From Octadecabacter sp. SW4 (GTDB taxonomy: Bacteria > Pseudomonadota > Alphaproteobacteria > Rhodobacterales > Rhodobacteraceae), in NCBI RefSeq assembly GCF_008065155.1, contig NZ_CP042819.1, positions 1,798,001 through 1,862,000 of the forward strand: a DNA stretch of 64,000 bases. The letters run 5' to 3'. This document shows positions 52,676-61,806 of this stretch, piece after piece. The notes beneath the pieces are model-generated. The model was not told where the DNA came from and ran no database searches. It saw only the letters and a program-made list of their open reading frames with translations. The position numbers and the translations under genes are program-made. How positions within the stretch are numbered: the stretch's first letter is position 1; every line of letters starts with the position of its first letter.

Positions 52676-54517
52676 TCAAAAGACGAAGTCTTCTTCGGCC
52701 AGATCGTCGGCATCGGTATTTTCCAGCCGGATCGTCACATCGCCCGCGGCGATGATCGCGGCACTTTCATCCTGACTAAGGAAAATGTCGTCAAACGTGA
52801 GCCCGTCAAAACCTGTCAGCGCGATCTTGTCCGCGCCGCTGGTAAAGTCGGTGATCGTGTCACTGCCATCACCTGCACCAAAGCCGAACACGTCGTTGCC
52901 CTGCCCGCCGGTCAGCATGTCGTCATCGACCCCGCCATTGAGCATGTCATTACCCGAACCGCCATAAAGCGTGTCGTCGTCATCAGCGCCATAAATGACG
53001 TCGTTGCCGCTGCCGCCCCAAACGATATCCTGCCCGTTGTCCGTCACCAGATCGCCCGCATCGTCGGCCAGGTTCAGCAGATCGGGCAAGGACGGATCAA
53101 GACCGGCATAGATCGTGTCATTGCCAACGCCACCACGGATCAGGTCAGAGCCTTCGCCGCCGATGATCGTGTCGTTGCCCGCGTTGCCGTTCAGCGTGTC
53201 GTCGTCAAAGCCGCCATCGATATAGTCGTTGCCCTTGCCACCCGTGGCAAGGTCGCCGTCATCGCCGGTGATGATCGTGTCATTGCCCTGCCCGCCGCGC
53301 ACGACGTCGGCGTCATCATTCGGATCGTCATCCGCCGCAAAAAGGCCGGGATAACCGCGATCGGGGCTGCCGCTGATGCCAAAGTCATTCACGTTGCCCG
53401 AGGTGTTGATATAATCATTGCCCCAACCGCCCGCGACACTGTCGCTGCCGTTGCCGCCAAACACCTTGTCCCAGCCGCTGCCGCCCTTGATCACGTCGTT
53501 GCCATAGCCGCCCAATATCCGGTCGCTGCTGGCCCCGCCATCAAGCTGGTCGTTGCCAAGCCCGCCATAGATGATGTCCCGGCCAATCCCGCCAAACACG
53601 GTATCGGCCCCCGAGTCGCCACGGATAAAGTCGTTCTGGCCACCGCCATAGATGATGTCATTGCCCTTGTTGCCATGCAGGCTATCGGCCCCGGCACCGC
53701 CATAAAGGCTGTCACGACCATCCCCGCCGTGCAGGTTGTCTTCGCCGCGGTATCCGTAAAGCGTGTCGTTGTTCTTGTCGCCGTAAACGCTGTCTGCGCC
53801 CATGCCGCCGGAAATCTTGTCGTTGCCTTCGCCACCCTGCAGGTAGTCGTTGCCGGTGTGGCCCTTGATGAAATCATCACCCTTGTTGCCCTTGATCACG
53901 TCATCGCCGGTGTTGCCGTGCAGGCTGTCGCCACCCGCCCCACCATAGATTTCATCATCGCCCGACCCGCCCGAGATAAAGTCGTGCCCGGCCTTGCCAT
54001 AGATCAGGTCATCGCCGTCGCGGCCGAATATCTGGTCCTTGAATTCCGTGCCAATGATCGCCGGATCGCCCTCGTCGGGCGCATCCTCGAGGGTGACTGC
54101 GGAAAAGGCATCAATCGCCGTCAGCCCCACGTCGATCAGGTTGTCGGCCACCGGATCGACCACAAGATCCATCCGCACGATCGACCCTTCGATATCGGTG
54201 CTGTCATATTCAACGGCAAAGCCCACCTGCCCCGCGCCCGGCTGCACAAAGCTGTCGGCGGGAATGTCGACCACCTGCAACAGACTGTCGGCAGACATGC
54301 CCGGCCCGATCCATGCAAATTCATCCCCGTCGGACACGCGCACATGTCCGTCATCGCCGATGATCGTCAGCCCAAGGTCATACGTGTCTTCATCAGACGG
54401 CGCTTGTTCCTGCCATAAGAAGACGTTCGTGCCGTCGTCCAGTTCGATGGTGATCGTTGCGCCAATCACCGCTCCATCGGCGATACGTGCGTCCACAAAG
54501 TCAGCAAGTAGTGTCAT
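52676..54517 (-). CDS. RTX calcium-binding exported protein (613 aa)
   Basis: An acidic protein with no N-terminal signal. Residues 1-155 form a beta-rich N-terminal domain (TITIELDDGTNVFLW ... GAGQVGFAVEYDSTDIEGSIVRMDLVVDP). Residues about 161-545 are RTX nonapeptides of the form GGxGxDxLx, which bind calcium as a parallel beta-roll. The end (547-613) has DTITDFTSGADKIALTGFDG, then FDDIFLSQDESAAIIAAGD and an acidic terminus of type I secretion substrates. Its last 50 residues closely match the neighbouring RTX protein. No secretion genes adjoin. Confidence 0.9.
   Translation of the reverse strand: MTLLADFVDARIADGAVIGATITIELDDGTNVFLWQEQAPSDEDTYDLGLTIIGDDGHVRVSDGDEFAWIGPGMSADSLLQVVDIPADSFVQPGAGQVGFAVEYDSTDIEGSIVRMDLVVDPVADNLIDVGLTAIDAFSAVTLEDAPDEGDPAIIGTEFKDQIFGRDGDDLIYGKAGHDFISGGSGDDEIYGGAGGDSLHGNTGDDVIKGNKGDDFIKGHTGNDYLQGGEGNDKISGGMGADSVYGDKNNDTLYGYRGEDNLHGGDGRDSLYGGAGADSLHGNKGNDIIYGGGQNDFIRGDSGADTVFGGIGRDIIYGGLGNDQLDGGASSDRILGGYGNDVIKGGSGWDKVFGGNGSDSVAGGWGNDYINTSGNVNDFGISGSPDRGYPGLFAADDDPNDDADVVRGGQGNDTIITGDDGDLATGGKGNDYIDGGFDDDTLNGNAGNDTIIGGEGSDLIRGGVGNDTIYAGLDPSLPDLLNLADDAGDLVTDNGQDIVWGGSGNDVIYGADDDDTLYGGSGNDMLNGGVDDDMLTGGQGNDVFGFGAGDGSDTITDFTSGADKIALTGFDGLTFDDIFLSQDESAAIIAAGDVTIRLENTDADDLAEEDFVF
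52883..54037 (-). repeat. RTX repeat array of the first RTX gene
   Basis: In-frame degenerate 27-base units encoding GGxGxDxLx calcium-binding nonapeptides. A non-repeat interruption (GNVNDFGISGSPDRGYPGLF, residues about 374-393) and another around 472-493 split the array. Confidence 0.85.
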
Positions 54518-54565
54518 AGCGTGCCCCCCCAGGCCTATGTGTCGCCCGAAATGCCGGGCGCAATC

Positions 54566-54582
54566 GTTAATCAATGATTAAC
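54566..54582. promoter_or_regulatory. 17-bp palindrome upstream of the first RTX gene
   Basis: GTTAATCAATGATTAAC, eight-base perfect arms around one base, 49-65 bases upstream of the RTX start. It is AT-rich in a GC-rich context, typical of an operator. The regulator is unknown. Confidence 0.5.
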
Positions 54583-54653
54583 ATTCACAGATCAGCGAGG
54601 GTTCGGCAAGTTGCCTTTTTAGCTTGGCGCGATCGAAAGCCCTGTCTTATCAA

Positions 54654-54674
54654 CTGTTTCCCATATGGAAACAG
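54654..54674 (-). terminator. Hairpin after the second RTX gene
   Basis: Perfect stem CTGTTTCC / GGAAACAG with loop CATAT, nine bases past the stop codon. No strong T-tract follows, so termination is uncertain. Confidence 0.45.
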
Positions 54675-54682
54675 ATAGCGGA

Positions 54683-56590
54683 TCAAAAATACGGATGTGC
54701 ACCAAACGTGAAGTCATCTTCGTCAATGTCATCCACATCGACGCCTTCCAAACGCATCGTTGTGTCGCCTGCCTGAATGATTGCGGCGCTGTCCTCTTGC
54801 GACAAGAAGATATCATCAAAGGTAAATAGCGCATTATCGTCGGCGCTGTTCTGACCATAAATGTGGATCTTGTCCGCACCCACTTCAAAATCTTTGACAG
54901 TATCCGTGCCACCGTCAAAGTCGATCCACTGGGGTTCATAATCCTGCGTTTCTTCGTTGAAGAGAATCTCGCGCTGCGCGGCATCAATGCGGAAAATGTC
55001 GTTTCCTGCGCCGCCTTTGACAAGGTCGTCACCCGCCCCGCCAGCGATGGAGTCTGCGCCATCGCCACCGAACAGCGTGTCGTCGCCCGTAAGCCCACGC
55101 AGCCCGTCATCACCACTACCGCCTTTCAATAGATCGTCGCCTTGCCCACCGTTCAATAGATCGTTGCCGTCACCGCCATACAGCGAGTCATCCCCGCCAC
55201 CTCCGCCCAACCTGTCGTTACCCTGCGCACCGCGCAGCACATCACTGCCCTGTTCGCCATTCGTATCATCGCCCGTCATACGGTCATCGCCGCGCCCACC
55301 GTGCAGCGTGTCATCACCCGCGCCGCCCCACAGGAAATCGTCACCGTTAAAACCCGACACCTTGTCATCACCGTCGTCGCCATAGACGTAATCGTTTCCA
55401 TAGCCGCCGTTGATGTCGTCATTGCCTGCACCACCTTTAAGGTTATCGTAGCCACGGTTGCCACGGATGAAATCATCACCTTCACCACCTTTGATTTCAT
55501 CATTATTGTCGCCACCGCGCAGATTGTCGTTACCGTCCCCGCCGGTGATGTTATCGTTCCCGTCACGGCCAAACACCGTGTCATCCCCGCCCAGCGCATC
55601 GATCACATCATCGCCGTCGGTCAGGTCAAGCAGGTCATCGCCCTCGGTGGGGGTGATCGGATCAGGGAGTTCGGTGACGGGCAACAGGTCAAGGGTCATG
55701 GCATAGACCTGCGCCACCTCGCCCGCGGGCACGATCGTTTCAAAGTAAATCGCCAAGTCGCCGTTGTCGTCCAGATCGACGGCGGCTGTTGCATTGGATT
55801 GATCAAGGCCCAAGGCATCGAGGGTCGCGACATCGAATGTCCCCTCGGCCACCAGCCCACCATCGGCATCGAATTGGGAGATCACGTTGTCTTCAAGAAA
55901 AACACCACTTTGCACGACCAGAACACCACCATCATCAAACGCAAATGCCTGTTTTTCGACACCACCGAATTCGCCGAGGTCTTCGATCAGAACCGTTGCT
56001 GTGATGCCGTTCTCGGACTGTTCAAGAATCCCCATTAGCTCGCCAGCCGCATTGCCGCTTTCGTCGCTCATCTGATACCGAAAGCTAAGCCGTCCATCGC
56101 CAAGCGGTTCAAGCTGCGAACTTTGAACGGCATCCTCGGACAGGTCCGTGAGGGCCGTCCAATCGGTCGCCGTGACAACAGGCATACCAGCATCGATACT
56201 GACCGATACCAACCCCGGCGCATTGATAAAGCCACCATTCGTTTGCGCGGGTGCATCATCAATCACACCAAAGACTTGCACCAAAAAGCCGTCCAGTAGA
56301 TCCCCGAATGGCACGGCCTGAATTCCGAGCGAAAAATCGTCGCCATCTTCATAGTCGGGATTGATATCTGCAAGCATGATGGTCGCGGTTGTTTCGACAC
56401 CGTTCACATCCGTGTAGATCAGATCAAACGAATTGGTCCCGATCTCACCGCGCGTCAAGCTGCCCCCTGTTGCATCCGCATAGGACACCGGTTGGACCAG
56501 ATAACTTGGGGTCAAGGACGGGCTTGCGGCGACACCGCCCGGAAACGGTTCAGTTGTCAAGCCAAGCGGATTCAGAATTTCAAATGGCAT
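54683..56590 (-). CDS. RTX calcium-binding exported protein (635 aa)
   Basis: A second RTX protein. Residues 1-310 form an N-terminal region without repeats: a beta-rich stretch ending FGVIDDAPAQ, then AFAFDDGGVLVVQSGVFLEDNVISQFDADG. RTX nonapeptides run from about 317 to 533 (LTDGDDVIDALGGDDTVFGRDGNDN...). The C-terminal module from about 560 (TDTVKDFEVGADKIHIYG, FDDIFLSQEDSAAIIQAGD) is shared with the other RTX protein. Probably secreted by a type I system encoded elsewhere. Start MPFEILNP has GGGGGG nine bases upstream. Confidence 0.9.
   Translation of the reverse strand: MPFEILNPLGLTTEPFPGGVAASPSLTPSYLVQPVSYADATGGSLTRGEIGTNSFDLIYTDVNGVETTATIMLADINPDYEDGDDFSLGIQAVPFGDLLDGFLVQVFGVIDDAPAQTNGGFINAPGLVSVSIDAGMPVVTATDWTALTDLSEDAVQSSQLEPLGDGRLSFRYQMSDESGNAAGELMGILEQSENGITATVLIEDLGEFGGVEKQAFAFDDGGVLVVQSGVFLEDNVISQFDADGGLVAEGTFDVATLDALGLDQSNATAAVDLDDNGDLAIYFETIVPAGEVAQVYAMTLDLLPVTELPDPITPTEGDDLLDLTDGDDVIDALGGDDTVFGRDGNDNITGGDGNDNLRGGDNNDEIKGGEGDDFIRGNRGYDNLKGGAGNDDINGGYGNDYVYGDDGDDKVSGFNGDDFLWGGAGDDTLHGGRGDDRMTGDDTNGEQGSDVLRGAQGNDRLGGGGGDDSLYGGDGNDLLNGGQGDDLLKGGSGDDGLRGLTGDDTLFGGDGADSIAGGAGDDLVKGGAGNDIFRIDAAQREILFNEETQDYEPQWIDFDGGTDTVKDFEVGADKIHIYGQNSADDNALFTFDDIFLSQEDSAAIIQAGDTTMRLEGVDVDDIDEDDFTFGAHPYF
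54992..55642 (-). repeat. RTX repeat array of the second RTX gene
   Basis: In-frame degenerate 27-base units encoding GGxGxDxLx nonapeptides, with one break near residues 439-447 (TGDDTNGEQ). Confidence 0.85.
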
Positions 56591-56825
56591 CGTCGGTTCC
56601 CCCCACAGGATCAATCGTTACACCCTATGGTTGCCTGACGGGGGGGTAAGGCAAGGGGGCGCTTAAAATTTCGTGAATAAACGCGGTCTTAGCGGCGACC
56701 CGGTGCGGTATTGTTTCGGAGTGGGAAACAATGGCCTACCAGCGGGACCATTCACCCCGAACCCCACCTTTTGTAAGAATGTTGCGAAAAAGCGCCCTCG
56801 GGCGAACTTTTCTACAATCGGGCTG

Positions 56826-56853
56826 TTGACCCCTCTTGCTGCGCATGCATAAA
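56826..56853 (+). promoter_or_regulatory. Probable ilv operon promoter
   Basis: TTGACC (56826-56831) and CATAAA (56848-56853) separated by 16 bases. This places transcription start near 56860, just before the leader ribosome site. Confidence 0.55.
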
Positions 56854-56884
56854 GTCTGCGCACGCATATGAAGGACCCCAAGGG

Positions 56885-56932
56885 ATGACACACATTCTAA
56901 CTGTCGTAGGAAAATCGCGCATGGGCCGGTAA
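56885..56932 (+). CDS. ilv leader peptide (attenuator)
   Basis: A 15-codon peptide MTHILTVVGKSRMGR with Ile, Leu, Val, Val clustered at codons 4-8. AAGGA (56871-56875) lies nine bases before the ATG. It precedes a terminator and acetolactate synthase, whose pathway makes exactly these amino acids. Ribosome stalling at these codons is the expected sensing step. Confidence 0.8.
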   Translation: MTHILTVVGKSRMGR

Positions 56933-56984
56933 CGGTTTACCCAATCAGGTTCCCATGCGCCCCCGAAACCTCGGGGGCTTTTTT
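56917..56984 (+). terminator. ilv attenuator: terminator and alternative stem
   Basis: The terminator is GCCCCCGA-AACC-TCGGGGGC followed by T6 (56959-56984), ahead of ilvB. An alternative stem pairs GCGCATGGG (56917-56925, inside the leader peptide) with CCCATGCGC (56952-56960), nine bases perfect, taking the first two bases of the terminator. A small GGTAA/TTACC hairpin (56928-56941) sits within it. Ribosome position on the leader could decide between the two. Confidence 0.75.
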
Positions 56985-57037
56985 ATGCCAAACGACCTCA
57001 TACCACACGACAAAGACGTCAGAGATAGGAAAACACG

Positions 57038-58789
57038 ATGACACGTCAAATGACCGGAGCGAAAATGGTAGTTCAGGCCCTGAAGGATCAGGGCGTGGAT
57101 GTCGTCTTTGGATATCCCGGTGGCGCGGTGCTTCCGATCTATGACGAGATTTTCCAGCAAAACGAAATCCGCCACGTGCTGGTGCGCCATGAACAGGGCG
57201 CGGTCCATGCCGCCGAAGGTTACGCCCGTGCAACCGGCAAGCCCGGCGTGGCGCTGGTGACATCCGGCCCCGGCGCGACCAATGCCGTGACAGGGCTGAC
57301 CGATGCCTTGATGGACTCCATCCCGATCATCGTGCTGACCGGGCAGGTTCCGACCTTCATGATCGGCTCGGACGCATTCCAGGAGGCAGATACCGTTGGC
57401 ATCACCCGCCCCTGCACGAAACACAACTGGCTGGTCAAGGAGACCGACAAACTGGCTGGCACAATCCACGAGGCATTCCATGTGGCCATGTCGGGCCGCC
57501 CCGGTCCCGTGCTGATCGACATCCCAAAGGACGTGCAGTTCGCCACCGGCAGCTACAGCGAAAAATCCAAACGCAAGAGCCACTACGCGCCGCAAGTCAA
57601 AGGCGATATCGAGTCCATCACTGAACTGGCCCGCGCGATCGAAAAGGCCAAGCGCCCCGTTTTCTATACCGGTGGTGGCGTGATCAATTCCGGCCCTGCC
57701 GCATCGCAATTGCTGCGCGAACTGGTCGAGGCCACGGGCTTTCCGATCACCTCGACCCTCATGGGTCTGGGTGCCTACCCCGCATCGGGCGACAAATGGC
57801 TGGGAATGCTGGGGATGCACGGCCTTTACGAGGCCAACATGGCGATGCACGACTGCGATCTGATGATCAACATCGGCGCGCGCTTTGATGACCGGATCAC
57901 GGGGCGCATTGATGCCTTCAGCCCGAAATCCACCAAGGCGCATATCGACATTGATGCCTCGTCGATCAACAAGGTGATCCGTGTCGATATCCCGATTTTG
58001 GGCGACGTGGCGCATGTGCTCGAAGACCTGCTCAAGGTCTGGAAATCGAACGGGCGCAAGACCAACGCCGAGGCTGTCGCCAAATGGTGGGGCCAGATCA
58101 ATGAGTGGCAAAAGGTCGACTGTCTGAAATTCGAACAAAAGGGCAAGGTGATCAAGCCCCAGCATGCGCTGGCCCGGCTTGAGGCGCTGACCAAGGATCA
58201 TGACCGCTATATCTGCACCGAAGTGGGCCAGCACCAGATGTGGGCCGCGCAGTATCTGGGCTTTGAAGATCCCAACCGCTGGATGACATCCGGTGGCCTT
58301 GGCACGATGGGTTATGGCCATCCCGCGTCAATCGGTGTGCAGATGGCCCACCCTGACGCGCTGGTGATCAACATCGCCGGTGAGGCATCCTGGCTGATGA
58401 ACATGCAGGAACTTGGCACCGCCATGCAATACGGCCTGCCCGTCAAACAGTTCATCCTCAATAACGAACGTCTGGGCATGGTGCGCCAGTGGCAGGAACT
58501 GCTGCACGGCGAAAGGTATTCCTCAAGCTGGTCCGAGAGCCTGCCCGATTTCGTGAAACTGGCCGAAGCCTTTGGTGCCAAGGGCATCCAGTGCCACGAC
58601 CCCGCCGATCTGGACGATGCGATCATGGAAATGCTGAACCACGACGGGCCCGTCCTGTTTGATTGTCTGGTGGAGAAGCACGAAAACTGCTTCCCGATGA
58701 TCCCGTCCGGCAAGGCCCACAACGAAATGCTGCTGGGGGATGCGAGCACCTCTGGCGCGATTGATGCCAAGGGGAGCGTGTTGGTTTAA
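57038..58789 (+). CDS. ilvB: Acetolactate synthase large subunit
   Basis: A 583-aa thiamine-diphosphate enzyme; first common step of Val/Leu/Ile synthesis. Catalytic Glu52 is in LVRHEQGAVHAAEGYARATG; FAD-binding part GARFDDRITG; ThDP-binding part IAGEASWLMNMQELGTAMQYGLPVKQFILNN; and RLGMVRQWQELLHGERYS. Transcribed after an attenuator. Its TAA shares one base with the ATG of the orphan gene that separates it from ilvN. Confidence 0.96.
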   Translation: MTRQMTGAKMVVQALKDQGVDVVFGYPGGAVLPIYDEIFQQNEIRHVLVRHEQGAVHAAEGYARATGKPGVALVTSGPGATNAVTGLTDALMDSIPIIVLTGQVPTFMIGSDAFQEADTVGITRPCTKHNWLVKETDKLAGTIHEAFHVAMSGRPGPVLIDIPKDVQFATGSYSEKSKRKSHYAPQVKGDIESITELARAIEKAKRPVFYTGGGVINSGPAASQLLRELVEATGFPITSTLMGLGAYPASGDKWLGMLGMHGLYEANMAMHDCDLMINIGARFDDRITGRIDAFSPKSTKAHIDIDASSINKVIRVDIPILGDVAHVLEDLLKVWKSNGRKTNAEAVAKWWGQINEWQKVDCLKFEQKGKVIKPQHALARLEALTKDHDRYICTEVGQHQMWAAQYLGFEDPNRWMTSGGLGTMGYGHPASIGVQMAHPDALVINIAGEASWLMNMQELGTAMQYGLPVKQFILNNERLGMVRQWQELLHGERYSSSWSESLPDFVKLAEAFGAKGIQCHDPADLDDAIMEMLNHDGPVLFDCLVEKHENCFPMIPSGKAHNEMLLGDASTSGAIDAKGSVLV

Positions 58790-59448
58790 TGGCTGGATTC
58801 TTCAAAGGAATATTTGGGAGAGGCAGCAGTCACGCACCTTCCAACCCACTCCTATTACCTCTTGAGTTCAGCGACTCTGAATTCGTCAGCTACCTCGTTG
58901 AATCACTTGAACACTATGACCCCCAAACGAGAGCTATGGTTTTGGTCGCTCATGTCAATCTAAGCATAATGCTGCCGGTTTTTGCTACCGAGGCCGCCAA
59001 GAGAGGTGAGGAAATGGGAGTAAGAGAATTCATCAAACTTACCGCTGAATCCGTTGGAAACGCCAAAGACGATATTGCCCGCAGAAAGCCAACCTGGTTC
59101 CATTTGGCATCGCTACTTAAACACGGCACAGACATCGCGAGGCAGCGCCCCGAATTAGCTCAACAACTCTCTAGTGTTTGGGCTTTGATCGCGGCGGATA
59201 GCATTTACCTAAGATCGCTTTTGCCGAACAACATCATATGGACAGACGAGGAAAAGGAGTTCTTTCGACCTTACTATAATGATGGTGAGAATGAATTCCT
59301 AAGCTTTGCTGTTAACCAGCACGTACCAAAGTTCATGAGTTGTATGGACCCATTCCTAAAACTGGCGGAATCGAGAGGCATATTTTTCTCGAGCGGCGAC
59401 TATATCGGTCCTTTTATCGTCCTAAAAAACAGAGAGGCTAACCCTTAA
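58789..59448 (+). CDS. Orphan protein inserted between ilvB and ilvN
   Basis: A 219-aa protein with no recognised domain, no clear membrane segment and no signal. The N-terminus MAGFFKGIFGRGSS could be an amphipathic helix; the rest is mostly helical (FVSYLVESLEHYDPQTRAMVLVAHVNLSIML, EFIKLTAESVGNAKDDIARRK). Base and codon use differ from neighbours: visibly AT-richer, with frequent CTA, ATA and AGA. The start overlaps the ilvB stop (TAATG) and the stop abuts the ilvN ATG, so the gene uses the operon's coupling and expression. Its origin by transfer is inferred. Confidence 0.85.
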   Translation: MAGFFKGIFGRGSSHAPSNPLLLPLEFSDSEFVSYLVESLEHYDPQTRAMVLVAHVNLSIMLPVFATEAAKRGEEMGVREFIKLTAESVGNAKDDIARRKPTWFHLASLLKHGTDIARQRPELAQQLSSVWALIAADSIYLRSLLPNNIIWTDEEKEFFRPYYNDGENEFLSFAVNQHVPKFMSCMDPFLKLAESRGIFFSSGDYIGPFIVLKNREANP

Positions 59449-60018
59449 ATGTCCCCACTCAAAATCAAAAAAGGCGCGACGAGCCATTCCGCCTATAACC
59501 TTCGCCCCACCTTTTCCGAGGTGATCGAGCGGCACACGCTGGCCGTGGTCGTGGAAAACGAACCCGGCGTGCTGGCGCGCGTCATCGGGTTGTTTGCGGG
59601 GCGCGGGTATAACATCGAAAGCCTGACCGTGGCCGAGATTGACCACGAGGGCCACCGCTCGCGCATCACCATTGTCACCACCGGCACGCCGCAGGTGATC
59701 GAACAGATCAAGGCGCAGTTGGGCCGGATCGTGTCGGTCTATGAGGTCCACGACCTGACCGTCGAAGGGGCCAGCGTGGAACGCGAACTGGCGCTGTTCA
59801 AGGTTGCGGGCAAGGGTGACGCGCGGGTCGAAGCCCTGCGTCTCGCGGATATCTTCCGCGCCAATGTGGTGGATAGCACCCTGGAATCATTTGTTTTCGA
59901 AATCACCGGCACGCCGGAAAAGATCGACGCCTTTGCCGACCTCATGCGCCCGATTGGCCTTGTGGAAATGGCGCGCACGGGTGTTGCGGCACTGGCGCGC
60001 GGCGTCGAATTCGCCTAG
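59449..60018 (+). CDS. ilvN: Acetolactate synthase small subunit
   Basis: A 189-aa regulatory subunit. The N-terminal ACT domain (HTLAVVVENEPGVLARVIGLFAGRGYNIESLTVAEI) binds valine for feedback inhibition. The C-terminal domain has VELAL-type ERELALFKVAGKGDARVEALRLADIFRANVVDSTLESFVFEITGTPEKI. It starts immediately after the orphan gene stop and ends before a hairpin. Confidence 0.95.
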   Translation: MSPLKIKKGATSHSAYNLRPTFSEVIERHTLAVVVENEPGVLARVIGLFAGRGYNIESLTVAEIDHEGHRSRITIVTTGTPQVIEQIKAQLGRIVSVYEVHDLTVEGASVERELALFKVAGKGDARVEALRLADIFRANVVDSTLESFVFEITGTPEKIDAFADLMRPIGLVEMARTGVAALARGVEFA

Positions 60019-60325: not shown

Positions 60326-60645
60326 TTCTTCGTCTCCTTTAAGGACATGGTGCGAAGACTGCATCGTCTTCACGGCCCAATTAAGGGTCTGTCCTGACAA
60401 CATGCTATCGTCTGGCGCGAAAATGGCAATTGCACGCGACCTTGCGCGCATTTTCACCGCTACTGTTTGCGCCCTTTCGCCGATCAATCCGGGTCGGCCA
60501 TTTGTGACCAATGCGCCCCCTGAATTTGCGCAAACCCTTGCCGAAACGATGTCGCGGTCAGGGTTGCGCAAGTCGCGCACAGACTGCGAAATCTGGCGCA
60601 ATCTCTGTTAAACTTGGCCATCATCTGCATCGGGAGTCCTGTCAC

Positions 60646-61806
60646 ATGGCCACGCACCCAAACGATCTTTCTGCCGTTCGCGCCCCCCTTGAGACCGCAC
60701 ATGGCTTACCCAACGCCCATTACGTTGATCCCGCCATGTTCGAGGAGGAAAAGCACGCGGTGCTGTTCGCAAGCTGGGCCGGTCTGGCCGTGGCGGCCGA
60801 TGTGCCCGAAAACGGCGATGCGGTGCCGTTGGAATTTGCCGGTATCCCCCTGCTGCTGATCCGCGACCGCGCGGGTCAGGTCCGCGTCTTTGAAAACATC
60901 TGCCGCCATCGCGGCATGATTCTGGTGAGCGAGCCGAAAAAAATCGAAGGCGCGATCCGCTGCCCCTATCACAGCTGGTGCTATTCCACGGCTGGCAAGC
61001 TGATCAGCACCCCGCATGTGGGCGGTGCCGGTCACAACACCCACCCCGCCATCGTCAAGGATGATCTGGGGTTGAACGAGGTGCGCAGCCACATCTGGTT
61101 CGACACCGTGTTCATCAACATCGACGGCAAGGCCGACCCCTTTGAGGTGGTGCATGCCGATCTGCTGGAGCGCTGGCGCGAATTTGACCAACCGATGTAT
61201 CATGGCGGTGCTGACAGCCGCTTTGACCTGCAGGTCGAGACCAATTTCAAACTGGCCGTGGAAAACTACTGTGAAAGCTACCACCTGCCCTGGATCCATC
61301 CCGGCCTGAACAGCTATTCCCGCCTTGAGGATCATTACAACATCGCCGCACCGGGCAAATATTCCGGTCAGGGCACGCTGGTTTACCGCCAGTTGAAGGG
61401 GCCGGATGACATGGTGTTCCCCGATTTTGCGAACCTCAGCGACAAATGGGATACGGGCGCGGAATATGTCGCCGTCTATCCCAACGTCCTGTTGGGGGCC
61501 CAGCGTGACCACTGTTTCGTGATCATTCTGGAACCCAACACCCAGACCACGACGACCGAACATGTGCATCTTTACTACGCCGACCCGAAGGTGAGCGAGG
61601 ACATGCGCGCGCGCAACGCCCATCTGTGGCGCGGTGTCTTTGAAGAGGACATCTTCGTGGTCGAGGGCATGCAAAGGGGTCGCGCCGCGCCCAGCTTTGA
61701 CGGTGGCCGGTTCAGCCCCGTCATGGACGGGCCAACCCATTGTTTCCACGATTGGGTTGCGGGCTGTGTCCAGGCGCACCGCACTAAGGCCCAAGCCGCC
61801 GAATGA
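60646..61806 (+). CDS. Rieske ring-hydroxylating dioxygenase alpha subunit (GbcA/CntA-like), substrate unknown
   Basis: A 386-aa SRPBCC/Rieske oxygenase. The Rieske [2Fe-2S] ligands are in CRHRGMIL and CPYHSWCYS. The mononuclear iron site is the segment NFKLAVENYCESYHLPWIHPGL with two His and an acidic residue. It is close in layout to oxygenases acting on quaternary ammonium compounds such as glycine betaine or carnitine, but the substrate cannot be told. No reductase gene adjoins. GGGAG upstream supports ATG 60646. Its end overlaps the next small gene by four bases. Confidence 0.85.
   Translation: MATHPNDLSAVRAPLETAHGLPNAHYVDPAMFEEEKHAVLFASWAGLAVAADVPENGDAVPLEFAGIPLLLIRDRAGQVRVFENICRHRGMILVSEPKKIEGAIRCPYHSWCYSTAGKLISTPHVGGAGHNTHPAIVKDDLGLNEVRSHIWFDTVFINIDGKADPFEVVHADLLERWREFDQPMYHGGADSRFDLQVETNFKLAVENYCESYHLPWIHPGLNSYSRLEDHYNIAAPGKYSGQGTLVYRQLKGPDDMVFPDFANLSDKWDTGAEYVAVYPNVLLGAQRDHCFVIILEPNTQTTTTEHVHLYYADPKVSEDMRARNAHLWRGVFEEDIFVVEGMQRGRAAPSFDGGRFSPVMDGPTHCFHDWVAGCVQAHRTKAQAAE

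Follow-up and report, generated by a model that had tools for sequence, protein, structure and literature searches.

The window, meaning the whole 64,000-nucleotide stretch of DNA analysed here, carries the genes for both subunits of acetolactate synthase on its forward strand. The large subunit gene, ilvB (57038-58789), matches NCBIfam NF006581 with 1125 bits (cut-off 974) as well as TIGR00118, and the small subunit gene, ilvN (59449-60018), matches NF008864 with 224 bits and TIGR00119 with 176 bits. Between them lies a forward-strand open reading frame (ORF) of 219 aa (58789-59448) that has no Pfam or NCBIfam match. Farther along the same strand, an ORF at 60511-61806 resembles the large subunit of a Rieske-type ring-hydroxylating oxygenase when judged by eye (CRHRG...CPYHSW), and upstream of ilvB the reverse strand holds two large adjoining ORFs (52676-56614) that feature many GGxGxD-type repeats and are RTX-like. 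A p27_CRE Rfam match inside ilvB is attributed to chance.

The region from 56826 to 57040 contains, in order and on the forward strand, a promoter, a GAAGGA motif, a 15-codon ORF, a stem referred to here as P1, an eight-pair terminator followed by T6, and then ilvB. The promoter (56826-56855) features a TTGACC -35 element at 56826-56831, an 18-base spacer and a TAAAGT -10 element at 56850-56855, and it is the sole promoter-like site found by a pattern scan of 56650-57060. In an alignment of upstream regions, nearly all relatives carry TTGAC[C/G] and a TAATGT-like -10 element (CATAATGTC) at a similar distance. Transcription is predicted to start near 56861. An earlier note on this DNA, made from its letters, had named a transcription start downstream of 56930 as a finding that would speak against attenuation; the leader is in fact preceded by the conserved promoter. 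The Shine-Dalgarno-like GAAGGA (56870-56875) is located 9 bases 5' of the leader ATG, and most relatives have an AAGGAG-like sequence. The leader ORF, MTHILTVVGKSRMGR, extends from the ATG at 56885 to a TAA at 56930-56932, and its control codons ATT CTA ACT GTC GTA occupy 56894-56908. Between the promoter and ilvB there is therefore a short ORF carrying consecutive cognate control codons, and the genes that would be regulated, ilvB and ilvN, fall by NCBIfam and Pfam assignment within the pathway for the amino acids that would be sensed.

Three RNA helices can be drawn from the end of this ORF onward. P1 pairs GCGCATGGG (56917-56925), which lies within the leader ORF and is the proposed antiterminator strand, with CCCATGCGC (56952-56960) in nine pairs, all of them Watson-Crick. 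P2 is a small hairpin, CCG-GUAA-CGG (56926-56935), whose GNRA loop contains the stop codon. The intrinsic terminator, GCCCCCGA-AACC-TCGGGGGC, spans 56959-56984, with arms at 56959-56966 and 56971-56978, an AACC loop and T6 at 56979-56984; it lies between the leader ORF and ilvB and is the single intrinsic terminator in 56650-57060 by pattern scan. The last two bases of the P1 3' arm, 56959-56960, are also the first two of the terminator, and these are the only bases that the helices have in common. When the sequence was read directly, every coordinate that the earlier note had given proved correct, as did its leader peptide, nine-base stem and T6 terminator. A further small helix, ACC 56939-56941 with GGT 56948-56950, is plausible in the window and was dropped, as it is paired in 45% of cells of the alignment described below.

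To place these features among relatives, ilvB loci were gathered from 80 genome contigs together with 30 loci from genomes near the window's own, among them Yoonia, Ruegeria, Phaeobacter, Marivita and Sulfitobacter. The 78 upstream regions that align across the whole element were used to build a covariance model. At E <= 0.01, the model finds the element in 181 of the 195 genomes of an order sample and in 85 of 87 genera. All 195 genomes carry the family label of the window and the 78 training sequences come from the same group, so this count measures spread within the group and not independent discovery. Genus g24 accounts for eight of the 14 genomes without the element. Three Paracoccus species (L064, L065, L066) and a member of g24 (L100) lack the attenuator before ilvB and retain the TTGACC promoter. 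A class-wide count of 77 of 289 includes many weak chance matches and is not used as a distribution. Additional matches in the window's own genome (L112-L118, at most 25.6 bits) look like chance terminators: none of the four that were compared with ilvB precedes that gene, and the six whose sequences were inspected have no branched-chain leader before a matching gene.

The leader peptide is conserved in length, in composition and in its position relative to the stems. It has 15 codons in 72 of the 78 relatives, and codons 4-8 specify Ile, Leu or Val in 90-99% of them, which is not the case for the flanking codons. The Ile-Leu-Thr-Val-Val reported in the earlier note is present in the window, its Thr being a deviation at a codon that specifies Ile, Leu or Val in 94% of relatives. 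Codon choice within the leaders is also unusual. GTA makes up 49% of Val codons in leaders vs 5% in the window's long ORFs, and CTA makes up 35% vs 2% of Leu codons, so that these rare codons are enriched about ten-fold or more. Such selection on codons suggests that the leader undergoes translation and acts as a sensor of branched-chain amino acids. The C-terminal (Arg)-Met-Gly-Arg is almost fixed among the 78 relatives, most likely because its codons also supply the bases of P1 and P2.

The spacing is equally regular, with 11 bases from the first base of the last control codon to P1 in 58 of the 78 relatives and the stop codon 4 bases 3' of the P1 5' arm in 76. A stalled ribosome is assumed to cover about 12 bases past the first base of its A site. 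With this footprint, a ribosome on codons 4-7 would leave P1 free, one on codon 8 would cover the first two bases of P1, and one at the stop codon would cover the whole P1 5' arm. The fixed spacing thus implies that a ribosome on most of the control codons leaves P1 free and that a ribosome at the stop covers it. This geometry amounts to switch logic: stalling permits P1, and finished translation forbids it.

The stems themselves are best judged by comparison. Although the best fold of 56871-56990 contains P1, reduced to 7 pairs, together with the terminator, its energy relative to shuffled sequences is modest (z -1.6), and fold energy alone is therefore no proof. P1 of the window is stronger than the corresponding helix in all 300 dinucleotide shuffles (p 0.003, the floor of the test), and P1 is paired in 97% of the cells of the 78-sequence alignment. 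Within the family P1 is almost invariant and covariation is thin; because P1 hardly varies there, its covariation is drawn from outliers and from other lineages. In these, P1 is rebuilt from different letters, as GCACATGGG/CCCATGTGC (L002), GCGCACCG/CGGTGCGC (L068, L105), GTGCGCTGG/CCAGCGCAC (L073), GGGCGCCATCG/CGGTGGCGCTC (L071) and others. Across 19 chosen loci, a helix at this place exceeds shuffles with a combined p of 7e-14, a value that treats the loci as independent though they are related; five of the individual loci (L031, L035, L046, L076, L101) have p >= 0.08 and prove nothing singly. P2 is paired in 94% of cells with both-side changes at all three pairs, and its loop is GTAA in 59 and GTGA in 14 of the 78 relatives; the stop codon holds a constant position within this GNRA hairpin. 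The terminator is paired in 95.8% of cells, with both-side changes at four of its eight pairs.

Taken together, comparison among relatives establishes the leader ORF, the control codons, P1, P2, the terminator, the promoter and their fixed spacing as conserved features of the sequence. Since peptide, codons, stem, terminator, promoter and spacing are all conserved, the ilvB element is almost certainly a branched-chain transcription attenuator. This was the central proposal of the earlier note, and the check it suggested, conservation of peptide and stems in the ilvB upstream regions of relatives, bears the proposal out.

How the attenuator switches is a matter of lower confidence. It is proposed that transcription starts near 56861 and that RNA polymerase is followed by a ribosome translating the 15-codon leader. 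Under a shortage of Ile, Leu or Val, this ribosome would stall at codons 4-8, just upstream of P1, so that P1 could form once its 3' arm emerges and ahead of terminator closure. P1 would then occupy the 2-4 lowest bases of the terminator 5' arm, which belong to the pairs that would need to close to pull the RNA from the polymerase, and the polymerase would read on into ilvB. When amino acids are ample, the ribosome would reach the stop at 56930 and cover the P1 5' arm; with P1 blocked, the terminator would close and transcription would stop. The direction of control, the antiterminator role of P1 and the sufficiency of 2-4 sequestered bases are all three deduced rather than observed.

Simple folding at nascent lengths is consistent with this order of events. 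With the polymerase over the T run, the foot of P1 is 97-99% formed if a ribosome occupies codon 4 or 6 or if none is present, and its formation falls to 0 when the ribosome is at the stop. The energies are less decisive. P1 with seven pairs plus a terminator of eight has -33.2 kcal/mol, P1 with nine pairs plus a terminator of six has -32.0 kcal/mol, and P1 and the terminator are thus nearly compatible; in the full transcript with P1 present, the base of the terminator forms with a probability of 0.5-0.8. As the combination of a seven-pair P1 and a full terminator is slightly the more stable, blocking by P1 must be kinetic. The overlap itself is present in every aligned relative. The earlier note had described a stem that overlaps both the leader codons and the terminator arm with two bases in common, which is exact for the window; among the 78 relatives the overlap is 2 nt in 42, 3 in 33 and 4-5 in three, and never less, so that a range of 2-5 with two or three in 75 of 78 describes the aligned sequences. 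The letters of the terminator 5' arm under the overlap (alignment columns 110-112) show zero variation, while columns 113-115 vary in 11, 8 and 3 of the 78. In addition, G110 at the terminator foot is kept in all 12 sequences with a T partner, where A would pair equally well. The terminator's plain need for a GC clamp could account for part of the invariance in columns 110-112.

An alternative possibility is the classical four-region attenuator. In that scheme P1 would serve as a 1:2 protector or pause hairpin that can coexist with the terminator, and masking of the P1 5' arm by a stalled ribosome would let a separate 2:3 antiterminator form. The canonical model of this kind is standard (PMC1183508), and several observations agree with it: the minimum-energy fold holds P1 and terminator together, the first bases of P1 would be hidden by a ribosome on codon 8, and gap-type lineages show no overlap between P1 and terminator. 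However, when all helices were listed, a strong helix over at least 4 bases of the terminator 5' arm appeared in 10 of the 78 relatives, at scattered positions and in some cases as an extended P1, so a helix from upstream to this arm is not conserved. In the family, moreover, a ribosome on codons 4-7 would leave the P1 5' arm free. The four-region model is accordingly regarded as unlikely, with roughly one chance in four. P1 is favoured as the antiterminator because no other blocking helix is conserved, because the overlap is always present and because the overlapped letters are invariant.

The same comparison marks the limits of base pinning by P1. In the test of its antiterminator role, P1 was found to be conserved, to overlap the terminator by just 2-5 bases and to compete at near-equal energies. 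At codon 8, where the rare GTA is commonest, the assumed +12 footprint would cover the two decisive bases, which argues against pinning when the ribosome stalls there. In ilvB leaders beyond the main group (L068, L071, L073, L076, L078, L079, L088, L099, L101, L102, L105, L154), P1 is kept and lies 2-5 bases from the terminator, and in other alphaproteobacterial lineages overall it ends 2-7 bases 5' of it. Competition for bases cannot, therefore, be the general role of P1, and it leaves ribosome control of termination in the gap-type ilvB leaders unexplained. An extension of P1 that would bring back the overlap in these lineages, by means of a G-rich element 5' of P1 that pairs with the arm or the loop of the terminator, gained no support in a test, as the candidates are weak and their places inconsistent. 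The arrangement singled out in the earlier note holds up, with a leader-coded stem that overlaps the terminator foot and no conserved 2:3 helix. As for P1 being an antiterminator that acts through the shared bases, this is the reading that suits the geometry best, while the near-equal energies and the lack of overlap in other lineages count against it. On balance, the proposed mechanism of P1 is given slightly better than an even chance, and the whole explanation, a ribosome-mediated ilvB attenuator with P1 as antiterminator, is considered probable by a modest degree.

The strongest matches to the model outside the window's family (E 5e-18 to 1e-6) lie before an MFS efflux gene and not before ilvB (L127-L132), and further leaders of this kind occur at L182-L184. 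At L153, the efflux homologue falls in the Bcr/CflA group (NCBIfam TIGR00710, 188 bits, just below the cut-off of 200.9, for a 300-residue fragment). The leader RNA before such genes features a mostly Val-rich peptide, P1, P2 and a terminator, and it is present in several other alphaproteobacterial families. The terminator of L128 overlaps P1 by five bases. Within the window's family, genome G228 has a second copy, with the leader MKQIVIVVGRMRMGR, before an efflux gene (L159), while the window's own gene of the same transporter group (L177) has no such leader. The distribution is patchy, with 1 of 11 and 3 of 36 genomes in the two orders searched. The arrangement suggests that a shortage of Val/Ile, or stalling of the ribosome, induces the exporter, and reuse in this position hints at a cassette able to move from one operon to another. 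A further reading is advanced tentatively, at somewhat less than even odds: a two-helix attenuator would have no separate antiterminator, a helix made of the leader's final codons would block termination solely by pinning the lowest 2-4 terminator bases, loss of leader translation would lead to readthrough and not super-attenuation, and the same cassette would have been reused before a Bcr/CflA-type exporter in other alphaproteobacteria.

It might also be that the terminated leader acts mainly in trans, as a small RNA or peptide, and that P1 and P2 are invariant for the sake of target pairing. Both stems are far more invariant than pairing alone requires, and the Rhizobiales sRNA family Atu_C8 (Rfam) is a weak relative, at 21.3 bits for the window against a cut-off of 50 and 32 bits for the ilvB leader of G043. 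Yet placement directly before ilvB is conserved in the loci examined, the control codons fit the pathway, and a trans activity would supplement attenuation, not substitute for it; as the main function it is improbable. Least credible of all, to the point of being negligible, is that the terminator is part of the upstream region and that the short ORF arose by chance, for which nothing speaks but the modest fold z-score of -1.6, and which is already refuted by comparison, given that ORF, codon bias and spacing are conserved in 85 of 87 genera and that the coding ORF upstream of the leader is on the opposite strand and points away.

An attenuator is the expected control device for acetolactate synthase, yet this one occurs almost throughout a large bacterial family. 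Compared with the textbook arrangement, its layout is cleaner, with fixed spacing, one decisive helix and an overlap of 2-3 bases, and it offers a simple system in which to ask what minimum portion of a terminator has to be blocked to prevent termination.

Control of ilvB by leader-peptide attenuation in alphaproteobacteria is already known, as the earlier note had stated of branched-chain attenuation in proteobacteria, and such leaders have been published (PMC1273637, PMC2573895, PMC4117421). An ilvB leader peptide was described by Vitreschak et al. in 2004, as cited in PMC1273637, and a Sinorhizobium ilvIH cis-regulatory element is credited to the same paper (PMC2573895). As these citing papers present them, the ilvB/ilvI leaders likewise place a leader peptide before ilvB or ilvIH and are attributed to attenuation. 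The ilvBN leader of Caulobacter crescentus is an attenuator with tandem Ile and Val codons (PMC4117421); by its description, which is the basis of the comparison, it is alike in having a Rho-independent terminator and a stalled ribosome that leads to readthrough into the acetolactate synthase genes. In Sinorhizobium, rnTrpL/peTrpL has been reported as a trans-acting small RNA/peptide (PMC7298713). Rfam RF02502, Atu_C8, shares P1 (GCGCAUGGG/CCCAUGCGC), an inner hairpin and a terminator with the element described here. The window's leader falls below the curated cut-off of 50 for this family (21.3 bits, E 0.34), and the sole strong Atu_C8 match, the genuine member L153 (98.8 bits), is of the efflux type, differing in its place before a Bcr/CflA-like efflux gene and in a P1 that lies 7 bases from the terminator. 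The enteric trp and his attenuators are alike in their control codons, stop placement and terminator and in the decisive position of the ribosome (PMC1183508). There, antiterminator II:III excludes terminator III:IV (PMC1183508), whereas here the sole conserved candidate pairs leader coding sequence with the terminator foot over 2-5 bases. Compared with the alphaproteobacterial leaders of Vitreschak et al. (2004), as represented by the papers that cite them, this two-helix layout without a classical 2:3 antiterminator may be new.
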